A stretch of DNA of 64,000 bases from Malania oleifera (lineage: Eukaryota > Streptophyta > Magnoliopsida > Santalales > Ximeniaceae). Shown here in pieces: positions 24,688-25,998 of this stretch. Location: NCBI RefSeq assembly GCF_029873635.1, contig NC_080418.1:11236062-11300061 (forward strand), read 5' to 3'. The notes below the pieces were generated by a model. That model had not been told where the DNA came from, did not search any database, and saw only the letters and a list, made by a program, of their open reading frames with translations. Positions within the stretch are counted from its first letter, which is position 1. Every line of letters starts with the position of its first letter. The translations under genes were made by a program, and so were the position numbers.

Positions 24688-25998
24688 TGTAGAGACCCAA
24701 AGAATTATGGTATTTAAATACTAAAAGAGGGAGAAAAAGGATATTGTAAAGTGAGTCACAGCACATCCTCGTCGACGAATGCAGAGCGTTCGTCGACGAG
24801 GTGACTTATTGGGATCATCGACGAGAGGATACCGAGAGACTATTTTCAGTTTTGAATTTCGTCAACGAGGAATAGGTGTCCGTCGACAAATTTCCTTCGT
24901 GACCTTGATGACAAAGTGACGTGTCTCATCGATGAGTGCAGGTGTACAAATAGCCCTAAACTTGGATTCAGAGCAGATTTCTTCAAACAAAATTGGATTC
25001 TCTCTCTCCTATTCATCCCCTCTGCATTCTCTCTAAGATTTTGGGTCCATTCTTTGTCGGATCGACGATTCAAAGCCACCACGACACTCCTAAGAAAATT
25101 CTCTTCAAGTTTGCTGGAGTGGATCGTTGGTGGGGCTAACTTGGACTTCATCCCAAGTTTAGGGTAAGGCTTTTTATTTAGTATTTGTCTTTCATACAGT
25201 TGTAGAATAGGTAGTACTTGAAGAAATACTGAAGTTTTCAAACTAAGAAATTTGTATAATATGTCGGTGTAAGGGCCGAGGATTTTATACGATATGTCGG
25301 CGTAAAGGCCAAGGATTTTATACGATAAGCTGGTGTAAGGGCCAAGGTTTTATATTATATACCAGCGTAAGGGCTGAAGGTTTTTATGATATGCTATACT
25401 AGCATAAGGGTCGTGATTTACAAGATACAAAATGCTGGTGTAAGGGTCGTAAATTCTATATGATATGTTATGCAAAGTTTTATGAAAATATTAATATGAC
25501 AGATATTATTATAAAATTGTCATGTATCGTTATTTGGAAATATATTATATGTTATCAGAACCTGGTTGGCCTGATTTAGGCTTTCACGAAGCACGGTACT
25601 GTATCTATATGATCATGATCATGTTTATGTTAGTGCTATTGCTTGTCGTATGGGGCAGTGGGAGATCGGCAGTCAATGTGGTTTATTGTAGTGCAGACCT
25701 CCCTCTGGTGTCCAAACCAGAAAGGGCAAACTCATCGTACTTACAGACTTATGTTGATCTATCGTGGTCGGCTAGCCATTGCTAGGTCCCATCTTTGGAC
25801 CGCACAACCCAGTCATGTGGGGATAAGACATGACACTAGCCAACTATCCATCTAGGGTGTTTTCCATATACGGTTATATGAGATAATTTATGTCTATAGA
25901 AACTCAATATATTATACCATGTTATGGAAAAATATGTTTTTCCCAAATATGTTATAGATAGTTTTAGCAAGTATGATTTATATATTGTTATATGTACA
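24688..25998 (+). mobile_element. Gypsy LTR, 5' part (copy A4), cut by copia insertion
   Basis: It starts TGTAGAGACCC right after GTTTT, at exactly the same place in the host DNA as the LTR at 59987 in duplication copy 2 (where the duplication is GTTTC). It carries the TCGTCGACGA array (24763-24943), a weak TACAAATAG box (24945), and the GCCGGCGTAAGG repeat (25262-25460). It stops at 25998, where the SIRE-like element begins; the remaining third is not in the window. Confidence 0.9.
24763..24953 (+). promoter_or_regulatory. TCGTCGACGA palindrome array of LTR A4
   Basis: Copies include TCGTCGACGA at about 24769 and 24791, ATCGACGA at 24815, TCGTCAACGA at 24860, CCGTCGACAA at 24881 and CATCGATGA at 24927, followed within 15 bp by GTACAAATAG where related LTRs have TATAAATAG. 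Confidence 0.6.

Follow-up and report, generated by a model that had tools for sequence, protein, structure and literature searches.

Palindrome arrays in the LTRs of the window

How did LTRs of two retrotransposon superfamilies in one plant genome come to carry arrays of short palindromes upstream of their TATA boxes? The question is raised by a stretch of 64,000 nucleotides from Malania oleifera (the window, C2:11236062-11300061; genome 1.494 Gb, 510 contigs), for which a preliminary description had suggested that unrelated gypsy and copia LTRs may have converged on a GTCGAC core at the same promoter position. The features of the window that bear on it are collected in Table 1.

Table 1. LTRs, palindrome arrays and TATA boxes in the window (spacings in bp)
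Feature	Position	Strand	Description
LTR A	1235..2981	-	5' LTR of gypsy element; TGTAAG start at 2981, TGACA end at 1235
TATAAATAG of LTR A	2697..2705	-	21 bp past last unit
Array A	2727..2922	-	8 YTCGTCGACGAR units and 1 with three changes; spacings 14,19,24,15,50,20,25,19
LTR E	15703..18084	+	solo LTR, TSD TTCTT; AT-rich U3, zero units
LTR B	24688..25996	+	starts TGTAGAGACCC; 3' part missing
Array B	24769..24935	+	6 units, spacings 21,25,44,21,46
TACAAATAG, TATA-like box of LTR B	24945..24953	+	9 bp after last unit
Copia array, CGGTCGACCG-type units	27363..27736	-	~147 bp from TATA box
Further CGGTCGACCG-type array	40658..40922	+	7 bp before TATATATA; spacings 33,33,32,28,32,33,42,20
LTR F	40997..43341	-	solo LTR, TSD CCTTC; AT-rich U3, zero units
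Copia array, CGGTCGACCG-type units	46145..46542	+	~129 bp from TATA-like box
Copia array, CGGTCGACCG-type units	49423..49815	-	~107 bp from TATA-like box
LTR C	59987..62014	+	solo LTR; TSD GTTTC both sides
Array C	60071..60216	+	6 units, spacings 25,21,44,21,25
TACAAATAG, TATA-like box of LTR C	60226..60234	+	9 bp after last unit
LTR D	62701..63300	-	truncated gypsy LTR fused to RNase H remnant (63300-64000, minus)
Array D	63233..63263	-	two units at a spacing of 21; TATAAATAG (63215-63223) follows after 9 bp

Allowing up to two mismatches, the gypsy unit TCGTCGACGA matches the window 30 times, where 7.0 matches would be expected (100 shuffles, maximum 15). At the same threshold the U3 regions of LTRs A, B and C hold 8, 6 and 5 units, compared with 0.43, 0.35 and 0.17 in dinucleotide-preserving shuffles of the same U3 (n = 1000 each), and in none of the three was the observed count matched (0/1000). 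These U3 regions have a GC content of 40–44% and a CpG observed/expected ratio of 1.60 (A), 1.40 (B) and 1.34 (C), and the array-less LTR E shows a ratio of 1.39 at 15% GC. The preliminary description had placed arrays of five to seven palindromes at four sites of the window, and those of A, B and C were recovered, whereas D keeps two units. Reading array B by eye adds a seventh unit, at 24905-24914, that has decayed by four changes. A PBS-like TTGGTATTAGAGC follows LTR A, with a gag-like frame beyond it that was judged by eye and has no Pfam match.

LTRs B and C are one insertion, copied along with a segment that is present at 18437-25996 and 53328-61935 in direct orientation (aligned pieces 86–93% identical) and holds a GRAS gene, with the LTR upstream of it, on the strand opposite to these LTRs (Pfam match tested in the first copy only). 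Since both lie inside this duplicated segment, the array at 24.7 kb and that at 60.0 kb are not two independent cases and were counted once, which leaves units in three of the five independent gypsy-type LTRs of the window, one of the three being truncated. The body of LTR E links to array-bearing gypsy LTRs. LTR F shows a weak likeness to array LTRs (local score 46 with C, shuffle maximum 37) and no link to them at E 1e-15; beyond it, at 43282-43704, a frame matches PF20167 weakly (25.8 bits; cut-off 45). Elsewhere in the window, frames on the minus strand at 6857-9010 and 11641-12387 with matches to RVT_3, zf-RVT, RVT_1 and DUF4283 are probably those of a non-LTR retrotransposon.

Most departures from the unit in the four arrays of the window (22 of 27; 23 units, up to three mismatches) are CpG transitions, which make up only 6 of the 30 possible single changes. 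The proportion is similar in two larger samples, at 243 of 291 departures (309 units) and 94 of 111 (129 units), where units were accepted with up to two mismatches of any kind in clusters first found by a definition tolerating CpG changes. From this pattern we infer intact ancestral palindromes that have been decaying as methylated CpGs do.

Abundance and placement in the genome

Exact copies of TCGTCGACGA occur at 132,361 places genome-wide, against 433 for TCGACGTCGA, a control palindrome with the same letters and CpG number. Units lie strictly on one side of the TATA box, with 11,503 genome-wide matches to unit-N1-30-TATAAATAG (6,217 and 5,286 on the two strands, a box with two units in reach being counted twice) and 53 matches (28 and 25) to the reverse order, TATAAATAG-N1-30-unit. 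We then examined a sample from contig C1, in which 100 listed places of TCGTCGACGA fell into 43 clusters, 40 of which were fetched. Clusters of at least four units were present in 38 of the 40 loci (39 clusters, 301 units; not in L097 and L098), and a TATA-like box lay within 45 bp in 20 of the 39 clusters, at 9–11 bp in 14 and at 19–21 bp in six; the remaining 19 had no TATA-like box within 45 bp by the pattern used. The repeated-motif (RM) boxes of Sireviruses are characterised by eight or more copies ahead of the TATA box; the eight-unit lattice described below agrees with this, with many sampled arrays keeping fewer recognisable units.

An array-blind sample was taken from the 7,988 sites of ACANNTTGGTATCAGAGC, which joins an LTR end to a PBS; the first 20 of these, all on C1, were used, and about 2.6 kb of the LTR side was read per site. 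At least four units were found in 17 of the 20 LTRs, 16 of them with the array in its expected place, 1.4–2.2 kb before the PBS, and a control palindrome of equal composition never occurred more than once per LTR. In this sample the arrays are thus not missing from most members, an outcome that the preliminary description had named as speaking against it. No array was seen in L133, L135 and L139. In L130 only 191 bp separate the array from the PBS, which belongs to another element; past the array the sequence reads as a reversed LTR start, apparently that of a reverse-oriented LTR. A TATA-like match (down to TATAA) followed within 70 bp in 14 of the 16 arrays in the expected place (absent in L134 and L147). 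Among the positives of this sample, LTRs ending in TTACA/TCACA and similar have the TATA match at +8 or +9 where one was found, and those ending in GACA at +16 to +22 in six cases, at +9 in L138 and nowhere in one.

Many of the elements that carry these arrays are of gypsy type. Array-bearing loci gave matches above cut-off to gypsy RNase H, Integrase_H2C2 and Tf2-1-like SH3 domains (PF17917, PF17919, PF17921, PF24626), and one rve match below its cut-off (4.6e-06). Same-strand tblastn matches to gypsy coding sequence lay beside 11 array loci, all of which belong to a single set of LTRs linked through the bodies that follow the array (E 1e-15, at least 120 bp). This linked set comprises 47 sampled arrays together with A, C and E of the window; L121/L122, L107, L090, L094, L113, L119, L123, L130 and LTR F of the window fall outside it. 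Of the window LTRs, C, E and F are solo copies with TSDs, and A, like L109, L125 and L127, is followed by TTGGTAT(C/T)AGAGC. As is the rule for Ty3/gypsy, the LTRs are of TG...CA form with a 5-bp TSD and a PBS after the 5' LTR. A chromodomain at the end of the integrase is a trait of Del/Tekay chromoviruses; the candidate in L117 matched PF00385 below the cut-off (E 2.8e-4, 21.2 bits; cut-off 25.1). Two members of the linked gypsy set, L091 and L129, also adjoin copia coding; in L129 the array-bearing gypsy-type LTR begins directly in a copia RT frame, apparently as a nested insertion.

A fixed lattice of units

The array consists of about eight 12-bp palindromes, YTCGTCGACGAR, each with three CpGs, in two groups of four. 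Distances within each group are 20–21, 24–25 and 20–21 bp, and the groups are split by about 44–52 bp from unit to unit, so that a full array read toward the TATA box runs about 21-25-20-[46]-20-24-21. Of 262 neighbour distances in the C1 sample, 133 were 19–22 bp and 64 were 24–25 bp (197 of 262 together), none was 23 or 26–39 bp, and the remainder were at least 40 bp. Counts of exact unit pairs genome-wide, which involve no selection for spacing and are independent of how decayed units are called, gave the same picture, with 11,454 pairs at 20–21 bp and 6,374 at 24–25 bp, but only 105 at 23 bp and 331 at the fourteen distances of 26–39 bp together. Exceptions are spacings of 14 and 15 in LTR A, 23 in L141 and a lost centre in the copia locus L159. 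Helical phasing alone was rejected as the cause of the lattice, as 20–21 bp corresponds to two turns and 24–25 bp does not. A different layout, with repeated 46-bp steps and different flanks, was seen in L094, L113, L123 and L140. Of these, L140 precedes an LTR end of gypsy type, and L123 has two elements of the central type described below.

In 14 full arrays, of which one is copia, the likeness between the two halves is stronger when they are compared as direct copies (z 5.6) than as inverted ones (z 2.2). This suggests that the halves arose by duplication of a four-unit module, and duplication probably took part in building the array.

The direct likeness of the halves also bears on an explanation at the level of RNA or single-stranded nucleic acid. 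U3 lies near the 3' end of the transcript, and an array folded as a rod could serve the RNA of the element or its silencing by small RNAs. Units 1-8, 2-7, 3-6 and 4-5 could pair in such a rod, because each unit is self-complementary; the predicted folds of the 14 arrays (one copia) are far stabler than those of base-shuffled sequences (mean z -5.9), and those of L129 and L091 are long rods. Passages of two papers (PMC10760457, PMC5311732) describe the clustered palindromic motifs of Sirevirus LTRs as hot spots of small RNAs. The real order and letters of the spacers add no stability, however (mean z +0.21 and +0.25), so that fold energy does not explain the geometry, and halves that are direct rather than inverted copies are not what a rod favours. 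A long hairpin was accordingly rejected as the cause of the lattice, the spacers not being tuned for fold stability, and we regard a role of the array through RNA structure as unlikely.

The copia arrays of the window

The arrays in the copia LTRs of the window are of a different kind. With units called at up to 4 mismatches of 12, 22 of 35 intervals measured 32–43 bp, and their motif CGGTCGACCG has 37,462 places genome-wide against 256 for its reverse, a control that is not CpG-matched. According to Bousios et al. 2010 (PMC2829016), Sireviruses have CpG islands made up of palindromic repeated motifs ahead of their TATA box, and Table 3 of that paper gives CGGTCGACCG as the repeated motif of a Vitis Sirevirus. 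The motif of the window's copia arrays, with its CGG-CCG core, is therefore the published one. Convergence of the window's two families on GTCGAC consequently has little in its favour, since the copia motif is known and differs in core, spacings and TATA distance. The same promoter position that the preliminary description had seen in both holds loosely, the copia arrays ending some 147, 129 and 107 bp before their TATA-like boxes.

A further CGGTCGACCG-type array in the window (40658..40922) could not be clearly aligned to the copia LTRs once its units were masked (scores 31, 20 and 23; background maxima 23, 28 and 25), so the Sirevirus motif, too, may be common to unrelated elements. In the copia arrays at 27363-27736 and 49423-49815, decay of the central CpG turns CGGTCGACCG into GGTTGACC, which contains TTGACC. 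We take TTGACC to be the W-box core, a WRKY site, and silenced CGGTCGACCG arrays may thus turn into WRKY sites.

A copia family with the gypsy-type lattice

The gypsy-type array does occur in copia LTRs, though not in those of the window. One element at about C1:780701-785891 has L121 and L122 as its LTRs, which share 81% identity over 585 aligned bases and both carry the array (6 and 8 units). The element shows the features of Ty1/copia: an RVT_2 match upstream of the L122 array, a PPT, GGTGGAGAT, at its junction with the 3' LTR, a PBS, AATTGGTATCAAAGC, after the 5' LTR, a TSD, TTTCT (by inspection), and an array in both LTRs. The RNase H end of the family looks Tork-like. L107 is a second insertion, which aligns over 1,736 bases, from RT to the end of the array, at 75% identity.

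Further loci of the family were sought through the PPT-LTR junction, for which 40 of 2,469 candidates were scored and the best 20 of 39 non-query loci were fetched. All of these best 20 of 39 have at least four TCGTCGACGA units, and 10 of the 20 show the complete lattice, 20/21-25-21/22-47/48-20-25-20, the other 10 lacking units or, in L159, the long centre. Of 125 distances in this sample, 101 were 20–22 or 24–25 bp and none was 23 or 26–44 bp. A TATA-like match stood 84–93 bp past the last unit in 14 of the 20 loci and 110 bp past it in one; five had none. The array-bearing copia LTRs have bodies without a link to gypsy LTRs at E 1e-15 and at least 120 bp.

A promoter array shared by copia and gypsy, as the preliminary description had it, is therefore found, in this other copia family (L121/L122 and 20 of 20 loci) and not in the two families of the window from which the idea came. 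As this family shares the motif, the lattice and, as shown below, a like central element, a common GTCGAC core alone does not explain the resemblance.

Spacer letters and a central element

Spacer letters were compared between full-lattice arrays of three groups, 11 from copia, 12 with the TATA box at 9 bp and five with it at about 20 bp, excluding two arrays without a clear TATA class. The two gypsy groups are defined by TATA distance alone, with all members but L090 in the linked gypsy set, and as the arrays were picked for their distances the comparison tests letters only. Between copia and either gypsy group the six short spacers agree at chance level in all 12 comparisons (z -0.9 to 1.0). 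The central spacer is alike, with z values of 3.9 and 4.6, the value against the second gypsy group resting on two distinct gypsy central spacers of modal length, and none of 300 permutations that keep relatedness reached these values (0/300). This test supersedes earlier central-spacer values of z 4.5–7.4, obtained from three copia spacers, which ignore relatedness. Between the two gypsy groups likeness is seen in short spacers 2 (z 2.9) and 6 (z 3.3), the other four being at chance level, and the central spacer gives z 1.1.

The central likeness is an element resembling ATACCGAGAG that begins 3 bp after the 12-bp unit 4. A loose pattern finds it at +3 in 14 of 23 copia arrays and in 39 of the 56 others, the strict sequence ATACCGAGAG in 4 of 23 and 11 of 56, and a narrower pattern in 9 of 20 copia loci. 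Loose hits up to 17 bp after a unit always lie at +3, save one case at +1, and further loose hits at 18–28 bp are mostly those expected from the preceding unit. Genome-wide, CGACGA-N1-6-GATACCGAGAG has 2,497 matches and its reversed control one; among the matches listed, all but two have exactly three intervening bases. L107 holds the ATACCGAGAG-like element twice in its long centre. Spacer 7, the last of the short ones, reads GTGACGTGG or GTGACGTGT in the gypsy-type arrays L090, L091, L093, L101 and L103, which have the TATA box at 9 bp; we take this to be a bZIP-like site, and none appeared in the copia arrays or the remaining gypsy-type arrays displayed in the spacer comparison.

Spacers that saturate neutrally would be expected to gain indels, and since the distances agree while the letters do not, the geometry of the lattice looks selected. 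The gypsy arrays may owe part of their common lattice to descent from one ancestor, as the LTR bodies still link and spacers 2 and 6 are alike. The same data weigh on the notion of a functionless short repeat spread through U3 by tandem duplication and gene conversion. The direct likeness of the four-unit modules noted above is what such a process would leave behind, but gene conversion should run on past the 12 bp of a unit and make the neighbouring spacers alike as well, which they are not, nor does a passive by-product fit copia and gypsy distances that agree when spacer letters do not, or the strict one-sided placement relative to the TATA box. We consider this origin very improbable.

Convergence in a stronger form, in which gypsy and copia would each have evolved the eight-site layout because the same host factor complex demanded it, draws on the six short spacers being unrelated between the two, on LTR bodies that do not link and on the TATA distance, which for gypsy is 9 or about 20 bp in most LTRs and for the copia family about 90 bp. 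Against this stands the agreement in motif, in the distances as a set and in a similar 10-bp central element placed at one and the same offset, and one inherited module with later turnover of spacers needs fewer coincidences. Independent origin in this form seems unlikely to us; a single shared module appears more probable, although the unrelated short spacers lend convergence some weight.

Relation to known LTR promoter arrays

Our arrays agree with Sirevirus RM boxes, as these are set out in the passages of PMC2829016 concerned, in having many copies of a short palindrome in the LTR ahead of the TATA box. RM boxes form a CpG-rich block, with which the CpG ratios of 1.34–1.60 in the U3 regions of A, B and C may be compared, array-less E giving 1.39. 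Our arrays differ in that the gypsy unit TCGTCGACGA lacks the CGG-CCG core, which one of the 13 RMs treated there (Tnd-1) also lacks, and in that the hosts are gypsy elements and another copia family; the gypsy loci are not Sireviruses, whereas the same passages call the RM Sirevirus-specific and absent from the classic retrotransposons compared there. They add that a common site for a single binding factor could not be identified, and neither a lattice nor a central element is found in their description. The Sirevirus palindrome in passages of PMC10760457, CACCGGAC-NNN-GTCCGGTG, is likewise from copia and is compared here by motif and not by lattice. Maize Sirevirus palindrome clusters in the regulatory part of the LTR show high small-RNA mapping (2016 study, as cited in passages of PMC5311732 and PMC10760457).

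For gypsy elements, passages of Cruz et al. 2014 (PMC4029996) report 5' CpG islands in Del-type LTRs of monocots and none in the eudicot group; these likewise make the 5' part of gypsy LTRs CpG-rich, but vary in length and sequence, and the word stem 'palindrom' is absent from the main text. The 'palindrom' passages of PMC8282616 concern short palindromic LTR ends. In the portions of the open-licence literature covered by our searches we found no description of a fixed lattice, of an array in gypsy LTRs or of one shared by gypsy and copia, and of 33 publications containing the letters TCGTCGACGA none was on retrotransposon LTRs, judging by titles and the beginnings of abstracts. In IMG/VR, two units 5–30 bp apart occur in 81 stretches, and blastn with the low-complexity filter (E 1e-5) matched none of the 80 loci listed to the window.

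Repeated activator boxes are otherwise familiar from plant retrotransposons, where the BII boxes of Tnt1 and the heat-shock elements of ONSEN form arrays of host-factor sites in U3. These arrays have fewer sites, and we know of no geometry in them that is common to superfamilies.

A candidate promoter module shared by two superfamilies

The arrays are real and more extensive than first noted, and the stronger result is a fixed eight-site module in both gypsy and copia LTRs of one genome. From its sequence and placement, the array is probably a promoter-proximal enhancer module of LTR retrotransposons, and the TATA distance of about 90 bp in copia argues against a strict part of the core promoter. 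A symmetric dimer of a host DNA-binding protein would sit on each palindrome, and neighbouring dimers would assemble with a binder of the central element into one rigid complex, which would account for the fixed distances and would recruit the transcription machinery to the nearby TATA box. DREB/CBF proteins, with the site RYCGAC (PLACE database), are a possible lead to the binder. CpG methylation of the sites would be expected to block the complex, and deamination of the methylated CpGs would in time erode the silenced copies.

Palindrome, lattice and a similar central element are common to gypsy and copia, and from this the module appears to have passed between the superfamilies, for instance by template switching or recombination, and would then have been kept by selection; template switching between LTR elements has been described in Triticeae (PMC1950507). 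The full reading, in which a rigid eight-site module with its central element moved between gypsy and copia and now serves as the code regulating a large share of this plant's retrotransposons, read by one methylation-sensitive host complex, goes further, and we put it forward tentatively, as a possibility that falls somewhat short of even.

Retrotransposon promoters usually evolve fast, yet the gypsy and copia LTRs described here have the same site-to-site distances with different letters in between. With 132,361 exact units, a single genome offers a natural saturation experiment on regulatory grammar, and promoter exchange between LTR superfamilies becomes directly testable. The arrays also point to a host factor that might switch many of the mobile elements of the Malania oleifera genome.
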